A stretch of 64,000 nucleotides of DNA, taken from the NCBI GenBank assembly GCA_001442985.1, contig LDYB01000016.1:186001-250000 (forward strand). The letters run 5' to 3'. This DNA comes from Armatimonadetes bacterium DC (lineage in GTDB: Bacteria > Armatimonadota > Fimbriimonadia > Fimbriimonadales > GBS-DC). Position 1 is the stretch's first letter. Each line of letters begins with the position of its first letter. A program made the translations under genes and the position numbers. Positions 3,479 to 42,709 of this stretch are shown here, one piece after another. A model generated the notes under the pieces. That model was given only the letters and a program-made list of their open reading frames with translations. It did not search any database and was not told the DNA's origin.

Positions 3479-4705
3479 ATGCGACGGAAACTGGTCATTA
3501 GTTGGGTTCTCATCAGCAGTGGGCTTTATGGGCAAACAGCGCCGCCGCGCTTCACAGTGGAGCAGGCGCTGCAGCGTGCGATGGAGGCGAACGGTGCGCT
3601 CCGCGCGTTGCGTCAGGACTGGCTCGCCGCCGCGCATCAGGCAGAGGTGGCGCGAGCGCCGCAGGCGCTCTTTCTCCACTGGACCCCTGCGCTGACCACA
3701 GGCGGCACAGGCGAGGAGCTGATTATCGCCCAGATGCTGGAGCTGAACGGCGCTCGTGCCGCACGCGAGCGAACCGCCCGGGCGGAGCAGCAACTCGCCC
3801 ATGCCCAGATTCTGAAAGAGGCGAACCAGCTGCTAAGCGAGACGGCGCGCGCCTTCTATCACGCCCTGTACGCTGAGCGATTGCGTCAGTTAGCGGAAGC
3901 CGAGGTGCAACGCGCCGAGCAAACGCTCGCCCTCATACGCCAGCAGGTGGAGATTGGCGTCCGCCCGGGGCTGGATCAGATTCAGGCGGAGATTGAGCTG
4001 GAGCGTGTGCGCCAGACCCTCAGCGCACGCACGGTAGAAGCAGACACCACGCGAGCAACACTGAACCGATGGCTGGGGCTGGAGCAGAGCGCCCGCGTGA
4101 ACCTTGAGGAGCCGCGCACGCCGTCGCCGCCCAAGCCGCCCGGCGCATGGAGTTCCCACCCCGACTGGCTCCATCAGCAGGCGCGCTGGCGCTCCATGCA
4201 GGCGTTGCGCCGCCAGACCCAGATTGAAGGACTGCCCGATGTGGGCGTGCAGATGCGTCTCGAAAAGCACGCCCAGCCCGGCTTCGGGCTAATCTTCAGC
4301 CTGCCCTTTGTGGACTACGGCGCCCGACGCAAGCGCCTGCAGGCGCTGGAAACCGCCACTGCCGCCGAAGCACTCCGCCTGCAGACCACGCAACACGCGC
4401 TCCAGACGGAGCTTGCCAACGCCCACTTGCAGGCACAGAATGCCTACCAGCGCTGGGAAGCCTACCAGCGCGACATCCTGCCCCGCGCCCAGAAACTGCT
4501 CCAGTCCGCTCAGGTGGGATTAGAAAGCGGGCATCTCTCTATCCTGCAGGTGCTGGAAGCCCAGCGCACGGCGCGCCAGATTCAGGAAGAAGCATTGCTT
4601 GCCGAGCGCGCCTACTGGATTGCCATAACCGATTACGCCGAGAAGCAAGCCGATTTTGCCGCCCTATGGCGCCGACAGCATGAGGAGGGAACACGCAATG
4701 AGTAA
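3479..4705 (+). CDS. TolC-family outer membrane efflux protein (CzcC-like)
   Basis: Outer-membrane duct of a tripartite metal efflux pump. The signal peptide MRRKLVISWVLISSGLYGQ is followed by two OEP-type alpha-helical repeats rich in Ala, Gln, Arg and Leu (about residues 25-210 and 225-400). At 408 residues it has the usual CzcC length. GGAGG lies eight bases before the ATG. The last codons overlap the next gene by eight bases (AATGAGTAA), as expected for one operon. The family is clear; the metal specificity cannot be read from this gene. Confidence 0.88.
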   Translation: MRRKLVISWVLISSGLYGQTAPPRFTVEQALQRAMEANGALRALRQDWLAAAHQAEVARAPQALFLHWTPALTTGGTGEELIIAQMLELNGARAARERTARAEQQLAHAQILKEANQLLSETARAFYHALYAERLRQLAEAEVQRAEQTLALIRQQVEIGVRPGLDQIQAEIELERVRQTLSARTVEADTTRATLNRWLGLEQSARVNLEEPRTPSPPKPPGAWSSHPDWLHQQARWRSMQALRRQTQIEGLPDVGVQMRLEKHAQPGFGLIFSLPFVDYGARRKRLQALETATAAEALRLQTTQHALQTELANAHLQAQNAYQRWEAYQRDILPRAQKLLQSAQVGLESGHLSILQVLEAQRTARQIQEEALLAERAYWIAITDYAEKQADFAALWRRQHEEGTRNE

Positions 4706-6251
4706 GTTCACGAAAACTGTGGGACTTCTGCTGGGGGTGGCTGTTGCGGGAGCGGGCATCTGGTGGTGGAGCCGTTCGCCGGCACCTGCCCCCGAAGCGC
4801 AAAGCGAAGAGCCAAGCCACACCCTTCCTGAAGTGGTGGAGTTAGATTCGGAGAGCCTGCAACTGGCTGATCTGGGCATCGAGCGCGTGTCGGTGCAGCC
4901 GCTGACCCGCACGCTCACCCTCTATGGTCAGATAGAAGCGCACCCCGAAGCGGTGGTGAACCTCAACTCGCGCGTTACAGGGCGCGTGCTGGAACTGCGT
5001 GCGCATGTGGGGCAACGGGTGCGCAGGGGTCAGGTGCTGGCAATTCTGGATAGCGAAGAGATTCATCGCGCTGAGGTGAACTACGCGCGAGCGAAACGCA
5101 ATGTCGCCTTTGCGAAGGCGGAACTGGCGCGTCGGAAACGGCTGGCGCAACTGGGCGCGTATGCCAACCCCGCGTTAGAGGAGGCGCGGAGTCGCTGGAG
5201 TCAGGCGCAGGCAGAACATCGCGCTGCCGAAGCCGACTATCAGGCAGCCCAGCAGGCGGTACGCCAGGCGGAGGCAGAGCGCCATCGCGCTCAGATTGCG
5301 CTGAATCAGGCGGAAAGCCAGCTCGCTCGCGCCGAACGCCTGCTTCAGGCGCAACTGATCTCGCGTCAGGAGTACGAATCGCTTCAGGCACAGCGCGAGA
5401 GCGCCCGCGCCGCCCTCCAGATGGCGCAAGCGCAACTCGAAGCTGCGCAAGCCCAGCTGCAGAACGCCCGCGCTCGCCTTGAAAACGCCCGCGCCCAACT
5501 GCAGATTGCCCAGCAACAGCTCCAGCGCGCCCAGCAGGTCTATCAGGGGCAGTACCTCACCAGCAAAGAGGTCGCCGAAGCCGAAGCCCAGCTCGCCCAA
5601 GCCCAGCTGGAACTGGAAGCCGCCCTGGACGAGCTCCATCTGCTGGGCGGTAAACCCGACGGCGGACACAAACTGACCCTTGTGGCGCCCTTCGACGGAC
5701 GCATCGCCGCGCTTCAGGTCACGGTCGGAGAGACCGTTACGCCCGATAAGCCCATCTTCCGCATTCTAAACACCGACACGGTGTGGGTGAGCTTTGACCT
5801 GTACCCCGAAGATGCCCCCTTTGTCAAGCCAGGCATGCCTGTTGAGTTCAGCCTGCCTGAAGATGCGGGAAAGCGCTACACCGCCGAGATTCAGATGGTC
5901 ATGCCCGAAGCAGACCCTCACGCCCGCACTGTCAAAGCGCGTTGTGTGGTGCGTAATCCTGATGCCTTGCTCAAACCGGGAACCTTCGTGGAAGGGAAGC
6001 TGACCCTTCGCCTGAGCGCGCCGCAGCTGCTCGTGCCTCTGAGCGCCATTCAGGAAATAGAAGGTAAACCGTATGTGTTCGTGGCGACCGATAGCCCAAA
6101 CCGATTCCAGCTGCGTGAGGTCGTGCTGGGGCAGCGCAACGACACCTACGCCGTCGTGCGCTCTGGTTTGAAGCCCGGCGAGCGAATTGTGGTGCGGAAT
6201 AGCTCGCTGCTCAAGGGCATGCTGGTCGGTGGAGAGGGAGGTGAGCACTGA
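4698..6251 (+). CDS. RND efflux periplasmic adaptor subunit (CzcB-like)
   Basis: Links the inner-membrane RND pump to the TolC-type duct. An N-terminal membrane anchor (LLLGVAVAGAGIWWW) is followed by the first lipoyl half (NLNSRVTGRVLELRAHVGQ), a very long Ala/Gln/Arg-rich coiled-coil hairpin (about residues 115-310), the second lipoyl half (LVAPFDGRIAALQVTVGE) and beta-barrel plus membrane-proximal domains. At 517 residues it is longer than most CzcB proteins, and the extra length is in the coiled coil. The start is the ATG after GAGGAGGG. An earlier in-frame ATG at 4656 lies inside the TolC gene and lacks a site. Confidence 0.88.
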   Translation: MSKFTKTVGLLLGVAVAGAGIWWWSRSPAPAPEAQSEEPSHTLPEVVELDSESLQLADLGIERVSVQPLTRTLTLYGQIEAHPEAVVNLNSRVTGRVLELRAHVGQRVRRGQVLAILDSEEIHRAEVNYARAKRNVAFAKAELARRKRLAQLGAYANPALEEARSRWSQAQAEHRAAEADYQAAQQAVRQAEAERHRAQIALNQAESQLARAERLLQAQLISRQEYESLQAQRESARAALQMAQAQLEAAQAQLQNARARLENARAQLQIAQQQLQRAQQVYQGQYLTSKEVAEAEAQLAQAQLELEAALDELHLLGGKPDGGHKLTLVAPFDGRIAALQVTVGETVTPDKPIFRILNTDTVWVSFDLYPEDAPFVKPGMPVEFSLPEDAGKRYTAEIQMVMPEADPHARTVKARCVVRNPDALLKPGTFVEGKLTLRLSAPQLLVPLSAIQEIEGKPYVFVATDSPNRFQLREVVLGQRNDTYAVVRSGLKPGERIVVRNSSLLKGMLVGGEGGEH

Positions 6252-25374: not shown

Positions 25375-26526
25375 ATGCGCCGTGTCTATTTAGACCACGC
25401 CGCGACGACGCCGATAGACCCTCGAGTGCGCAAGGCGATGGAGCCGTACCTCACGCGGGAGTTCGGCAACCCCTCCAGCCTGCATGCGTGGGGGCGCACA
25501 GCACGACTGGCAATTGACGAAGCGCGAGAAACGCTCGCCGCCGCGCTGGGATGCTTCCCCGACGAGGTTTGCTTCGTTTCGTCGGGCACCGAATCGTGCA
25601 ACCTCGCGATTATCGGCTGCGCCCTCAAAGCGCCGCCCGACCGTCGGCACATTCTGCTCTCGGCAATAGAGCATCACTGTGTGCTGGACGCAGGCGAGTG
25701 GCTCCGCCCATTCGGGTTTGAGGTGGAACAGCTGCCCGTGGATCGGTATGGGCAGGTCTCGCTCGATACCGTGCGCGAGCGGCTGCGCCCCGACACCTGG
25801 CTCGTGTCGGTAATGCACGCCAATAATGAGATTGGCACGCTTCAGCCTGTGGCGGCGATTGGCGCCCTGTGTCGTGAGCGGGGGGTGTGGTTCCATGTGG
25901 ACGCCGTGCAGACCTTCGGACTGCTGCCCGTGAAGGTGGACGCGCTCAATTGCGACCTGCTGAGCGTGTCGGCGCATAAGATTTACGGACCCAAAGGCGT
26001 GGGCGCGCTTTACATTCGTGCGGGCACGCCGCTCCAGCCGCTGATGGTGGGCGGTGGGCAGGAGCATGACCGCCGCGCTGGCACCGAAAATGTCGCCGGG
26101 ATTGTGGGCTTCGCCGAGGCAGTGCGGATCGCCGAAAGCACGCGCGAGACCGAAGCGCCCCGACTCGCCCAGCTGCGCGACGCTTTCATTCGCGCAGTGC
26201 TGGAGACCATCCCCGACGCAACGCTCACCGGACACCCCACGGAGCGCCTGCCGAATAACGCTCACTTTCGGTTTGTGGGCGTGCCGTCCGACAGCCTGCT
26301 GATTGCGCTGGATCGGGCGGGGATTGGCGCCAGCAGCGGCGCGGCGTGTAGCGCAGGCTCGCTGGAACCCTCCCATGTGCTGATGGCGCTCGGCTGGGAC
26401 GAATCCGCCGCGCAGGAAGGCGTGCGCTTCTCGCTCGGACGCCACACCACGCAGGAAGACCTGGACTACACCGTAGAGGTTCTCCAGAAGACTGTCGCCC
26501 AGATTCGGGCGCGACGCGCCAAGTAG
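25375..26526 (+). CDS. Cysteine desulfurase, NifS/IscS type
   Basis: PLP enzyme that takes sulfur from cysteine as an enzyme-bound persulfide for Fe-S clusters and thiolated tRNA. The 383 residues open YLDHAATTPIDPRVRKAM. The PLP lysine is in SVSAHKIYGPKGVGALY (near 200). The active cysteine is in SSGAACSAGSLEPSHVL (near 324), on a loop of the IscS/NifS class. The ATG at 25375 is preceded by GGACG; a GTG at 25369 overlaps the mrp stop and is the alternative start. It is translationally linked to mrp. Confidence 0.93.
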   Translation: MRRVYLDHAATTPIDPRVRKAMEPYLTREFGNPSSLHAWGRTARLAIDEARETLAAALGCFPDEVCFVSSGTESCNLAIIGCALKAPPDRRHILLSAIEHHCVLDAGEWLRPFGFEVEQLPVDRYGQVSLDTVRERLRPDTWLVSVMHANNEIGTLQPVAAIGALCRERGVWFHVDAVQTFGLLPVKVDALNCDLLSVSAHKIYGPKGVGALYIRAGTPLQPLMVGGGQEHDRRAGTENVAGIVGFAEAVRIAESTRETEAPRLAQLRDAFIRAVLETIPDATLTGHPTERLPNNAHFRFVGVPSDSLLIALDRAGIGASSGAACSAGSLEPSHVLMALGWDESAAQEGVRFSLGRHTTQEDLDYTVEVLQKTVAQIRARRAK

Positions 26527-35863: not shown

Positions 35864-37168
35864 TCACTCTGTTGCTGAATGCACCGCTCCCACCAGCTCG
35901 CCCATCACGCCCTCTGGGGAGACATCCACGATTCGCACAGACACCAGTTGCCCCGCCAGACTCGGCGAGCCAGCGAACTCCACCTGCAGGTAGTGGTCGC
36001 TTGTGCCCGTCATCAGCCCACTGAGCTTGGAGCGGGTCTCCACCAGCACGCGCTCCACCCTGCCGATAAAACGGCTCGCGTAGCGCAGCTGCACCTGCTT
36101 GCAGAGCGCCTGCAGTCGCTGGCTCCGTTCGGTCTTCACGGGTTCGGGCACTTGAGCCTCCATCGCCTCGGCAGGGGTTTCAGGACGCGGCGAGTAGCGG
36201 AAAATGTGCGCCCGACAGTATTCCGCCGCCTCCACCACTTTGCAGGTGTTCTGGAACGCCTCCTCATCCTCGCCGGGAAAGCCAACCATAATATCGGTGC
36301 TGATGGCAAGGTCGGGAATGCGCTCGCGCAGGCGACGGCACAGGTCCAGATAGAACGCCTGGTCATACGGGCGATTCATCGCTTTGAGAATGCGCGAGTC
36401 GCCGCTCTGGAGTGGGATGTGCAGGTGCGGGCACATCTTGGGGTTGGTGGCAATCTGTTCTATCAGCGCGTCGCTGATGAGCGTCGGCTCGATGGAGCTG
36501 ATGCGGATGCGCTCCAGTCCCTCAATCTCGCTCAGCAGGGCGCAGAGTTCCGCCAGATCGGGTCCCCCACTGCCTGAAAGGGGTCCGTAGTCGCCAATCA
36601 GCACGCCTGTCAGCACGATTTCGCGGTAGCCCTCGGCGACCAGCGCCCGCGCCTCTTCCAGCACCTCCGTGTAAGGGGTACTGCGCATTACGGGGCGCGT
36701 GAGCGGAATGGAGCAAAACGAGCAGTTCACATTACAACCGTCCTGAATTTTCAGCACGGCGCGGGTGCGGCGTCGGATGGGCGTTTCGCCAGCGCGGCGT
36801 TCGGCTTCCAGACGCTCGCGCAGGTGGGGGAAATGCTCCAGCACATACTCCAGCGTGCGCAGCTTTTCGGGGTTAGGCACGACGAGGTGCGCCTCGTCCA
36901 GTTTCTCACCACGCCGCAGGGTGAACTGTGCGTAGCAGCCCGTCATCACCACAATCGCGTTGGGGTTCATTCGGCTGGCACGGCGGACGGTCTGGCGCGA
37001 TTTCGCCTCCGCCGACTGTGTTACCGAGCAGGTGTTAATCACATACACATCGGCGGGCGACTCGAAGGGCACAATCTCAAACCCCTGCGCCTCGAAACTT
37101 TCCAGAATCTTCTGGGTCTCGTACTGATTGACCTTACACCCCAGCGTGGTGAACGCCGCAGTTGGCAT
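35864..37168 (-). CDS. mtaB: tRNA t6A37 methylthiotransferase
   Basis: Converts t6A37 to ms2t6A in tRNAs reading ANN codons. 434 residues: an UPF0004 domain (TTLGCKVNQYETQ, NTCSVTQSAEAKSR, VMTGCYAQ) supplying three cluster cysteines, a radical-SAM domain with CNVNCSFCSIPLTRP near residue 144, and a C-terminal TRAM domain. The ATG follows a TACAAT box by ten bases. This promoter and the first 13 codons are duplicated upstream, on the far side of hicBA. Confidence 0.94.
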   Translation of the reverse strand: MPTAAFTTLGCKVNQYETQKILESFEAQGFEIVPFESPADVYVINTCSVTQSAEAKSRQTVRRASRMNPNAIVVMTGCYAQFTLRRGEKLDEAHLVVPNPEKLRTLEYVLEHFPHLRERLEAERRAGETPIRRRTRAVLKIQDGCNVNCSFCSIPLTRPVMRSTPYTEVLEEARALVAEGYREIVLTGVLIGDYGPLSGSGGPDLAELCALLSEIEGLERIRISSIEPTLISDALIEQIATNPKMCPHLHIPLQSGDSRILKAMNRPYDQAFYLDLCRRLRERIPDLAISTDIMVGFPGEDEEAFQNTCKVVEAAEYCRAHIFRYSPRPETPAEAMEAQVPEPVKTERSQRLQALCKQVQLRYASRFIGRVERVLVETRSKLSGLMTGTSDHYLQVEFAGSPSLAGQLVSVRIVDVSPEGVMGELVGAVHSATE

Positions 37169-37192
37169 AGCGGGGAGAATTGTACCTTATGG
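37130..37192. repeat. 63-bp direct repeat, copy at the mtaB start
   Basis: It spans the mtaB promoter (TACAAT, minus strand 37184-37179) and its first 13 codons. It matches 37682-37744 in 62 of 63 positions; the one difference is CGGGGAG against CGGAGAG. The bases outside the repeat do not match. Confidence 0.95.
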
Positions 37193-37205
37193 GCAGAAGG
37201 TGTTT

Positions 37206-37427
37206 CTACTCCTCCATAAGTTTCAGTAAATCGTCCCGGCTCAAGCCACACTGGTTCAGAATGTCTCTTAAGGTGCCTTTTGCCAGCTCATCGTGCAGGG
37301 GCACAACCGTCCTGCGATCACCTTTGCGCAGGCTCACATGGCTACCTTTCTGGCGCACGACTTCAAAGCCTGCTTTTTGGAGAAGGCGTATTAGCTCTCT
37401 TCCAGAAAGGACAGGTAGCTTAGGCAT
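37206..37427 (-). CDS. hicA: HicA-type toxin
   Basis: 73 residues with the double-stranded-RNA-binding-like HicA fold: LPVLSGRELIRLLQKAGFEV, then RQKGSHVSLRKGDRRTVVPL with the catalytic His in GSHV. It is a ribosome-independent mRNA interferase. It follows hicB with an eight-base overlap. After its stop comes the native mtaB promoter copy. Confidence 0.92.
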   Translation of the reverse strand: MPKLPVLSGRELIRLLQKAGFEVVRQKGSHVSLRKGDRRTVVPLHDELAKGTLRDILNQCGLSRDDLLKLMEE

Positions 37428-37659
37428 GCGTTTGGACTTCCAGCGGGTAAAGCACTATTTCCTCAGCGCTTTCGGGCAAGTCTTCGCCGAAGCTTTCTAT
37501 GTAGAGTTCTACGGCTTCGCGGAGATTCGCGCGTGCTTCATCCAGCGTGCGCCCCTGTGTGGTAACACCCAGCTCGACGCAGCGTGCGATGTACCAGTCG
37601 CCCTCCTTGACGATGAGAGCGCTGTATCGCCTGAGTGTGGGCAAAGCTTTTCTACTCAC
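37420..37659 (-). CDS. hicB: HicB-type antitoxin
   Basis: 79 residues with a partially degraded RNase H fold: YSALIVKEGDWYIARCVELG, VTTQGRTLDEARANLREAVE, then LYIESFGEDLPES. There is no C-terminal HTH, so this is the short form. The GTG start lies four bases after the TGA of an 18-codon mtaB-derived leader, with GAGGTGA as the ribosome site. It is probably coupled to that leader and transcribed from the duplicated mtaB promoter. Confidence 0.92.
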   Translation of the reverse strand: MSRKALPTLRRYSALIVKEGDWYIARCVELGVTTQGRTLDEARANLREAVELYIESFGEDLPESAEEIVLYPLEVQTHA

Positions 37660-37663
37660 TATC

Positions 37664-37720
37664 TCACCTCGCTCGCCAACCGACCTTACACCCCAGCGTG
37701 GTGAACGCCGCAGTTGGCAT
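37664..37720 (-). pseudogene. Duplicated 5' fragment of mtaB acting as a leader for hicBA
   Basis: The frame reads MPTAAFTTLGCKV, identical to the MtaB start, then diverges to GWRAR and stops 18 codons in, directly before hicB. A TACAAT box (minus strand 37736-37731) precedes it, as in mtaB. It is a non-functional MtaB fragment that leaves an intact promoter and start site upstream of the toxin-antitoxin genes. Confidence 0.8.
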
Positions 37721-37744
37721 AGCGGAGAGAATTGTACCTTATGG
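37682..37744. repeat. 63-bp direct repeat, copy upstream of hicB
   Basis: The second copy of 37130-37192, with one mismatch. The pair bounds a 489-bp unit holding hicBA. Confidence 0.95.
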
Positions 37745-37883
37745 AGGCTTGGTCAGGGCTTGCGAAACGAAAACGGGTCGTTAAATAGGCGCGTATCGGC
37801 AACCTTCTCCACGCGCCCCATGGGCAGGTGCAAACACCAGAGCGACTTTGCCATCCCCGCAGGATTCTCTAACCGTTTGCAGA

Positions 37884-37976
37884 GCAGGTCGGCTTCGTCT
37901 CGTAGGAACGGCTTCAGCCCTCTGGCGCAAACGCCGTGTGATTCCGTTGCTTGCGCGTTTTCCCAGACAGTCTCTA
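37884..37976 (+). repeat. Family 1 palindromic repeat, copy D (right part only)
   Basis: It starts inside the second hairpin (GCAGGTCGGCTTCGTC), keeps the right end TAGGAACGGCTTCAGCC, and continues in the right extension seen in copy B (TTCCGTTGCTTGCGCG ... AGACAGTCTCTAA). The left half is missing. No gene is seen between here and the direct repeat. Confidence 0.75.
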
Positions 37977-37977
37977 A

Positions 37978-38652
37978 TCAATCACTCAACAACGGTGGAG
38001 CGTATGCATGAATAGGCGAGAAAAGATTCGCTACCTCCACCCTGTGTATCTTAGCGTGGCGCGGTATGCGGAAGAAAGCGTGTTCCTCGGGGATTGCCGT
38101 GCGATAATGCAACAGGATATGCCGACGCCGCAGTCGTCCCTCCCACCACAATTCGGAACAGACTGGCACCTCTTGCCCTAAAAGAGGAGGCTCGGCTCGA
38201 AAACACACACGCCACTCCACCGTAGCGCTTTCACCCACACGCGGTAAGTAGCGATACCGCTCTATCAGTCGCCGTGAACACTGCCGATGCGTACAGAACT
38301 TCAAGTTGCTTGCCGTGTCCCTTTCCAGCAACTGCCACTGGACGCTTCCATAGAGATTGCCGAAGTCGTCTCGGAAATAGGGCATCAGCGAACGGCTCAT
38401 CCAGAGGCGCAGCAGCGCGTCGGGAATCTGCGCCGTAAACACAGTAGGCGTCTTGAACGGATAGAACCAGGTATAGGCGGTATTGCCACGAAAGAATAGA
38501 TAGTGTTCTGTGATGGCGCCCACCGCTAAGCGACGACCAACGATTTCGCCTTTGGGATTGATGAGGCGGATTTCACGCCCCCATTCCGACTCGCCGCCGA
38601 ACCTGTCGAGCCACTCTATCAGCTCTTCCTCAATCAGCCATTCGGATTGCAT
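37978..38652 (-). CDS. Unidentified soluble protein of the accessory island
   Basis: 224 residues, beginning MQSEWLIEEELIEWLDRFGG. It is acidic at the N-terminus, then Trp/Arg-rich with an alternating pattern (ITEHYLFFRGNTAYTWFYPF, VEWRVCFRAEPPLLGQEVPV) and a CTHRQCSRR segment. There is no signal peptide or membrane helix. GGAGGT seven bases before the ATG fixes the start; the longer frame to 38730 runs through a repeat fragment. It lies last in the minus-strand island and could be an immunity protein, but that is only position. Confidence 0.6.
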   Translation of the reverse strand: MQSEWLIEEELIEWLDRFGGESEWGREIRLINPKGEIVGRRLAVGAITEHYLFFRGNTAYTWFYPFKTPTVFTAQIPDALLRLWMSRSLMPYFRDDFGNLYGSVQWQLLERDTASNLKFCTHRQCSRRLIERYRYLPRVGESATVEWRVCFRAEPPLLGQEVPVCSELWWEGRLRRRHILLHYRTAIPEEHAFFRIPRHAKIHRVEVANLFSPIHAYAPPLLSD

Positions 38653-38657
38653 CCCGA

Positions 38658-38768
38658 TTACCTCCTCGCCCTTTCGGTATCCTTGCTCTGCACTGCCAGC
38701 CCGTTGCTGTCCTGCGGATAATAACCCCACGGGGCGCCCGATGAACCCATCATCAGCAAAGTACCCCC
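38658..38768 (-). pseudogene. Fragment of a repeated secreted-protein module
   Basis: Between two stops the frame reads GGTLLMMGSSGAPWGYYPQD then SNGLAVQSKDTERARR. The first part matches the module at 42449-42709 (GGTLLMMTQAGEPWGYYPQD, SNGLAVQS) almost residue for residue and at the DNA level. There is no start codon. It appears to be a displaced piece of a larger protein, joined here to the gene at 37978-38652. Confidence 0.6.
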
Positions 38769-38794
38769 CTATGTGAAACGCGCTTGTTACAATT

Positions 38795-39496
38795 TTACCA
38801 TGAACCGTGAACTCCGCGACCTATAATGCGTCCAGTGCCGTCCGTTTCCCAGAAAAACCAAAGGGATAAAGAGAGCCGAGGGTCATTTTCCTGAACCAGG
38901 CGTGGTTCACAATAGAAATACTTTCCCACAGCATGCTCTTTGAGGAAACAGCCCCTTCTCACCTCCCAGCGGTTCCCCCGTTTGACAACATCGTACAGTT
39001 CAGCAAAGCCGCACGGAGTAAACTGCGGTCCAATGTCGCGCTTTACAGTCGAGAGCGGAGCCTCCAGCAGGACAGGAGGTAGAGAGAAGGAAACGGAGGA
39101 TTTCGTTCGCCCACCCGCTATCCACAAATACCTCACCACACGCGAGTCACGGTTGAGCCACAGCAGAAGGCGAAGCGGTTGTTTGCTATCTTCAAAACAT
39201 GCAAGCGATACTGCATACTGATTACTTACTTGCTGACCGCGTATTATACGCCATTGCTCAATTCTGGGATAAAGGGAAAGTATTTCCCCAATCGTTCGAG
39301 AGGTCCAGAATAACTCAAACCTTGCCTGGTTGTCCTGTATCGCTTCATTATAGTGTTCAAGGATTAGGTCAAGCGAGGCGAGTCGGAGAATCATCGCCCC
39401 AACAAAACCAAGCACCACCAAAAAACCTCCTGCTGCCAGAAAGCGGTGTCTCAGTGCCATCTTCTGTACCCTTGCTGATGACAACATCACTGACAC
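38795..39496 (-). CDS. Membrane-anchored protein of unknown function
   Basis: 233 residues. One N-terminal helix (FLAAGGFLVVLGFVGAMIL) is followed by an extracytoplasmic domain (HYNEAIQDNQARFELFWTSR, LLWLNRDSRVVRYLWIAGG). I do not recognise the family. The GTG at 39496 overlaps the previous small gene by ten bases; ATGs at 39490 and 39460 are alternatives, and the last sits closest to the hydrophobic segment. Confidence 0.55.
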   Translation of the reverse strand: MSVMLSSARVQKMALRHRFLAAGGFLVVLGFVGAMILRLASLDLILEHYNEAIQDNQARFELFWTSRTIGEILSLYPRIEQWRIIRGQQVSNQYAVSLACFEDSKQPLRLLLWLNRDSRVVRYLWIAGGRTKSSVSFSLPPVLLEAPLSTVKRDIGPQFTPCGFAELYDVVKRGNRWEVRRGCFLKEHAVGKYFYCEPRLVQENDPRLSLSLWFFWETDGTGRIIGRGVHGSW

Positions 39497-42448: not shown

Positions 42449-42709
42449 TTAGCGTACTATCATCTTGATTGTCTTCTCCACACCCCCATCCACCAGTGGG
42501 GAACACACGGCTACCTGCGTCGGCACAAACACAGGACACGCACACGGCTCGGCAAGCGCACTCTGCACCGCCAGACCGTTGCTGTCCTGCGGATAATAAC
42601 CCCACGGCTCACCCGCTTGCGTCATCATCAGCAAAGTACCCCCACTGGGCACAAACCGCCAGTTCTCACTATACCCCGGCGCGTTCCCAGCAGGCAGGTA
42701 ATCCTCCAC
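42449..42709 (-). pseudogene. C-terminal fragment of a larger exported or surface protein
   Basis: 87 codons reading VEDYLPAGNAPGYSENWRFV, PSGGTLLMMTQAGEPWGYYP, QDSNGLAVQSALAEPCACPV and on to VDGGVEKTIKMIVR. The frame is open further upstream into the preceding gene, and the GTG used here has no ribosome site. Its middle part is repeated at 38658-38768. It is most likely a fragment left by recombination. I cannot name the parent family with certainty. Confidence 0.45.

Follow-up and report, generated by a model that had tools for sequence, protein, structure and literature searches.

A HicBA toxin–antitoxin operon between two copies of the mtaB promoter and start, and repeat-flanked toxin–antitoxin operons across the Armatimonadota

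It has long been asked how chromosomal toxin–antitoxin (TA) operons that lack a transposase move and what lets them persist. A hicBA operon of Armatimonadetes bacterium DC, which bears on this question, lies between two copies of the promoter and first codons of the host gene mtaB. The question becomes testable with such a clear case, in which the host gene is intact, and with an enrichment that can be counted across the phylum. The operon was found in the window—the whole stretch of 64,000 nucleotides that was analysed—on contig C16 of a 2.85-Mb draft genome of 26 contigs (G000). The nearest relatives of this genome are hot-spring and other Fimbriimonadales/Armatimonadota genomes. We consider it likely, taking the three parts as one joint reading, that hicBA was inserted with duplication of its target, is transcribed from the distal copy of that target and is retained by addiction.

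The two copies are direct repeats of 63 nt with a spacing of 552 nt and one mismatch (98% identity). The chance probability of this match is approximately 1e-34 per site pair, set against approximately 1e8 pairs. Each copy contains the TACAAT box of mtaB, the start codon and the first 13 codons. The mismatch, a C/T difference on the minus strand, falls after the −10 box and ahead of the ATG, and the two copies agree in all 13 codons. The features follow each other on the minus strand in the order distal repeat, hicB, hicA, proximal repeat and mtaB (Table 1). An earlier note, made from the letters of this DNA, had described the repeats with their single mismatch and the mtaB elements in each, and both descriptions hold. 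The truncated upstream frame that it had reported is likewise confirmed by sequence and translation, and so is its placement of hicB and hicA between the repeats.

Table 1. Features of the hicBA–mtaB locus (window positions)
Feature	Position	Strand	Remarks
Distal (upstream) 63-bp repeat copy	37682–37744	−	62/63 identical to 37130–37192
Distal TACAAT, −10-like box	37731–37736	−	sole promoter-like element near hicB
Truncated mtaB leader frame	37664–37720	−	ATG at 37720; 18 codons (MPTAAFTTLGCKVGWRAR*) and TGA; stops 4 nt ahead of the hicB GTG
GAGGTGA, ribosome-binding-site-like	37664–37670	−	overlaps the leader stop, 4 nt ahead of the hicB GTG; read from sequence
Unique insert, hicBA only	37193–37681	−	489 bp; single copy in the genome
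hicB, antitoxin gene	37420–37659	−	GTG start at 37659; 79 aa; RNase H-like part only
hicA, toxin gene	37206–37427	−	73 aa; intact; overlaps hicB by 8 nt
Proximal 63-bp repeat copy	37130–37192	−	working mtaB promoter and start; −10 box TACAAT at 37184–37179
mtaB, tRNA t6A37 methylthiotransferase	35864–37168	−	ATG at 37168; intact; 434 aa; TIGR01579, E = 3e-126

HicA matches PF07927 with an E-value of 5.6e-21 (74.8 bits, cut-off 27) as well as the HicA structures 5yrz_B and 1whz_A, and the conserved GSH histidine is aligned with both. HicB matches the HicB-like family PF24113 (E = 7e-8, above the cut-off), and UPF0150 lies just below its cut-off. The pair features the hallmarks of a HicBA system: adjacent small hicB and hicA genes on the same strand; a HicA domain with the conserved histidine; and a HicB fold. 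It shares with the systems described by Makarova 2009 (PMC2701414) the small hicA with a dsRBD-like fold and conserved histidine, the adjacent hicB with an RNase H-like fold and the patchy distribution. However, it differs from them in two respects: the insert has no promoter of its own, and its HicB is without the HTH or RHH domain of many antitoxins. The 79 residues of HicB give no HTH or RHH match in Pfam. Since HicB has no recognised DNA-binding domain, autoregulation through it is not expected, and the autoregulated promoter that the earlier note had taken as normal for hicBA is a weak expectation here.

Between the repeats, the insert leaves margins of 22 bp ahead of hicB and 13 bp past hicA. 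Its 489 bp contain no transposase, terminal inverted repeat, att-like site or integrase, and the rest of the genome holds no further copy of it, only chance pieces. An inverted repeat of 15 nt (37211–37225 and 37733–37747) joins the end of hicA with the edge of the distal repeat and was judged to be a chance match. A search of positions 36500 to 38800 against Rfam gave no structured RNA match. The true start of mtaB is that of the proximal copy, and MtaB aligns with its relatives over the full length from residue 1. Entry of hicBA by insertion, with duplication of the target and mtaB kept whole, is well supported. The duplication would have left mtaB its own −10 box and start codon, and in this way would allow an insert to spare the host gene.

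The segment was searched for in all 18 genomes of the family, and it occurs twice only in the window genome. None of the 17 others has a second copy outside mtaB; seven of them give one significant match, at mtaB, and the rest give short promoter-like matches only. The earlier expectation of a single copy in genomes without hicBA holds in so far as no second copy is present in the 17 relatives, but a significant single match is restricted to the seven. Relatives that lack hicBA and keep both copies, the outcome named beforehand as contrary to an insertion, were not seen among the 18 genomes. In addition, no hicBA precedes mtaB in the upstream regions of relatives that were inspected, which together with the two copies in the window genome only bears out the proposed entry by a duplication sparing mtaB. 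In the relatives, mtaB is preceded by a GGTACAAT- or GGTAGAAT-like box 9–10 nt before the ATG, usually followed by ATGCCGACC. The sequence upstream of this box is not conserved in any relative examined, and no near relative shows the exact empty site next to the upstream flank of the window locus.

The closest relatives of the window operon (HicB 70–79% identical at the amino acid level) are located at three other loci: before a trmFO-like gene in G004; with unrelated genes on either side in G008; and next to the gene of a glutamine-amidotransferase-type protein in G012, with host genes named by eye in all three. Closely related hicBA cassettes, hence, occupy four different places in four genomes. 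The cassette of G004 is bounded by a diverged direct repeat of 46 alignment columns with a score of 44, compared with 33 for the best of 100 shuffles. On contig 53 of G012 (L178, approximately 4500–4870), a relative of the window hicBA has a truncated hicA and appears as a decaying cassette at another site.

No −10 box is seen in the 22 bp of the insert ahead of hicB, and the distal TACAAT, 71 nt ahead of hicB, is the only nearby promoter candidate. The orthologous operons of G008 and G012 carry a TATACT box approximately 9 nt before their start codons; therefore, the missing promoter is particular to the window copy. Through the duplication, hicB would have come to lie 71 nt downstream of a second mtaB promoter, following a truncated mtaB frame that is nearly leaderless. 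With hicB in this position, hicBA is likely transcribed from the duplicated mtaB promoter in the distal copy. Translation of hicB would probably start from its own GAGGTGA site, perhaps aided by re-initiation. Between hicA and mtaB there is no terminator-like site, so that read-through into mtaB is possible.

The motif GGTACAAT is found at window positions 26526, 34193, 37186, 37738 and 57401, each time 4–13 nt ahead of the start codon of a frame. Promoters of this nearly leaderless consensus seem to be common in the family of the window genome, also ahead of mtaB in relatives. In G004, the region ahead of hicB aligns with the mtaB leader of the same genome, as if the leader travelled with hicBA. 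This idea was rejected: in a search of the G004 genome, other TACAAT promoters score better, and the region ahead of hicB is not among the matches listed; therefore, the likeness reflects the shared promoter consensus.

To the earlier note, the arrangement seemed an unusual one, a view that the phylum does not bear out. The survey sample consisted of 101 HicA loci across the phylum, along with 68 VapC, 28 GNAT and 27 Uma2 loci, and a gene was scored as flanked when located between direct repeats of at least 25 bp that lie at most 1500 bp apart. By this basic criterion, 15 of the 101 HicA loci are flanked; for control positions within these loci, the figure is 85 of 8819. A stricter score yields 14/101 against 1/470 random control positions (Fisher p = 1.7e-10); the control positions, drawn from the loci under test, are not wholly independent. 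Strong repeats flank VapC in 5 of 68 loci and none of 645 controls (p = 7e-6). Flanking by strong repeats is absent from the 28 GNAT loci, and the accessory control Uma2 is flanked in 3 of 27, apparently by tandem paralogues; together, these non-TA controls amount to a small set of 55 loci, some of them housekeeping or tandem genes. Roughly one in three flanked HicA loci belongs to a different class and was rejected as a gene-end duplication—RHS-like segments in L136, L215 and L230, copies of hicB itself in L116 and L191—with paralogue and RHS assignments made by eye from translations. After their removal, 10/101 HicA loci remain against 1/470 (p = 2e-7). Approximately 14% of HicA and 7% of VapC loci in the sample are repeat-flanked, and the repeats at other TA loci differ in sequence, target and length (25–316 bp).

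L215 (G159) and L230 (G165), from two species of one genus, have HicBA amid RHS-like core segments with flanking repeats of 113–125 bp. The window itself holds a second direct repeat, of 47 bp and 96% identity (38686–38732 and 42561–42607), that encodes a GYYPQDSNGLAVQS-like sequence and continues into a different protein-coding stretch after each copy. By eye, this looks like a shared end with variable tails, as in RHS-like or polymorphic-tail genes.

Most flanking repeats are ends of intact neighbouring host genes, usually 3′ ends. For HicBA, these are the 3′ ends of the genes for a 3-keto-disaccharide hydrolase (L224, 157 bp), a molybdopterin oxidoreductase (L223) and a DUF1805 protein (L196, 99 bp, 98%), and, as assigned by eye, an N6-methylase-type C-terminus (L209) and uvrA-like C-termini (L134 and L137). 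At the flanked VapBC loci, 3′ ends of host genes are duplicated in five of five: those of a HAD hydrolase gene (L298); an ABC permease gene (L319, 58 bp, 100%); a MarR-like gene (L322); an unnamed gene (L273); and a HEAT-repeat gene (L276). Host-gene 5′ ends are duplicated at mtaB in the window, at a small gene in L188, where the repeat (89%) comprises a TATAAT-like box, the ATG and a few codons, and at a small unnamed gene in L124. A −10 box and start codon are duplicated in the window and at one other HicAB locus. Since most repeats duplicate 3′ gene ends, promoter gain cannot be the general reason for the pattern. In the clear cases, the host gene is kept in one complete copy, and what stands on the other side of the TA operon is an orphan fragment. 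The far junction often lies 6–15 bp past the last TA stop (window 13, G004 6, L224 10, L223 14, L215 15).

L134 (G033 contig 297, 1900–4800) contains several repeats of 70–150 bp approximately 800–1000 bp apart with HicBA among them and uvrA-like C-terminal sequence nearby, which looks like an array produced by repeated insertion at a single gene end. At L223 (4130–5520), a 1.3-kb unit carries hicBA and another small gene (152 aa) between 60-bp repeats of the molybdopterin oxidoreductase gene end.

Two routes of entry fit these data, and neither needs a transposase: duplication of the target in situ, or import of the operon together with a homologous gene end attached to it. Under the second, the operon would have arrived together with the gene end of a related strain—by homology on one side and an illegitimate join on the other, or by one-crossover integration of a circle holding gene end and TA operon—and the second copy would be a donor allele instead of a target duplication. 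We place this import not far below an even chance. In nine coding cases, the differences between host copy and orphan are 23 synonymous and 18 nonsynonymous, compared with an expected synonymous fraction of 0.24 under free drift (p = 1e-5) and approximately 0.36–0.42 if only the orphan drifts freely (p = 0.007–0.04), a margin that depends on the assumed mutation bias. This synonymous excess leans to import for some loci. However, the window is uninformative in this respect, as its coding part is identical and one base differs, and no donor with the same junction was found. The joining was probably recombinational: illegitimate, perhaps helped by homology of a co-imported gene end. Besides addiction, a second filter may act, in that only insertions near a gene end can duplicate enough sequence to keep the host gene whole.

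An older hicBA ahead of mtaB that later captured a promoter, by a duplication that copied the mtaB promoter and leader upstream, would explain an insert without a promoter for hicBA. Yet the inspected mtaB upstream regions of relatives are free of hicBA, and the flanking pattern also recurs with 3′ gene ends, from which no promoter is gained; we regard this course of events as improbable. Direct repeats at both ends and a restored target gene also resemble genomic islands, as if the 63 bp were an att-like core used by an integrase element that is gone or acts in trans. Such site-specific integration is highly improbable: an insert of 489 bp has no integrase; the repeats of other TA loci vary in sequence, length and target and have no common core; and the other family genomes have no second 63-mer outside mtaB. 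That the repeat is an assembly artefact of a metagenome-assembled genome is hardly credible, for although the draft genome is in 26 contigs, the two copies are told apart by one base and enclose unique sequence, and the same pattern is present in many independent assemblies, with a diverged case in the single-contig genome G004.

The preferred reading, insertion with duplication of the target, has a precedent. For restriction-modification genes of Helicobacter pylori, "insertion with long target duplication" was described by Nobusato et al. 2000 (Gene 259:99; see also Furuta et al. 2010), as reported in PMC3031569, PMC1643837 and PMC3154945; the former is cited in a TA review (PMC2654758). Those cases share with the present one an addictive gene pair, no transposase, target direct repeats of variable length and a host locus that is single-copy in genomes without the insert. 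The window locus shows the marks of this class: 63-bp target repeats; no second target copy in 17 relatives; and no transposon features. As a difference, the insert here is a type II TA operon (HicBA, and VapBC elsewhere) in Armatimonadota, and the target duplicated in the window precedes the operon and includes a promoter and start codons. In Arabidopsis, flanking repeats of more than 30 bp accompany 14% of moved and 2% of unmoved genes and are mostly host sequence that is also present at the orthologous site (PMC2869330). The host repeats flank at similar rates; however, those are eukaryotic genes without addiction, for which circle excision by recombination was proposed. Direct repeats also flank an AAA-ATPase/subtilisin-like TA pair of Mycoplasma, where they were read as recombination scars (PMC8562856); that report differs in covering a single locus of another TA type and no survey. 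An earlier survey of target duplication at type II TA operons was not found in a literature search that was thin on subscription journals. What is new is the recurrence of the pattern with TA operons across a phylum; the type of mechanism is known from restriction-modification genes.

Long direct repeats promote deletion of the DNA between them. Neutral inserts between such repeats would be lost cleanly, and cells that lose hicBA would be poisoned. We infer that addiction may block repeat-mediated loss of hicBA by survivorship: repeats around addictive operons would survive because loss of the operon is proposed to poison the cell. Addiction would also explain why restriction-modification genes and TA operons show the pattern, in contrast to the small controls. 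That bare type II TA operons in general enter by gene-end duplication, and that their repeats persist since repeat-mediated loss is lethal, is a tentative proposal to which we give clearly less than an even chance. It predicts that repeats around TA operons delete readily only if the toxin is dead. If true, gene-end duplication can hand an operon a host promoter, and the presence of long direct repeats on both sides of an operon would mark active addiction in nature at the sequence level. If addiction holds them in place, these repeats would be evidence from nature that chromosomal TA operons counteract their own loss.
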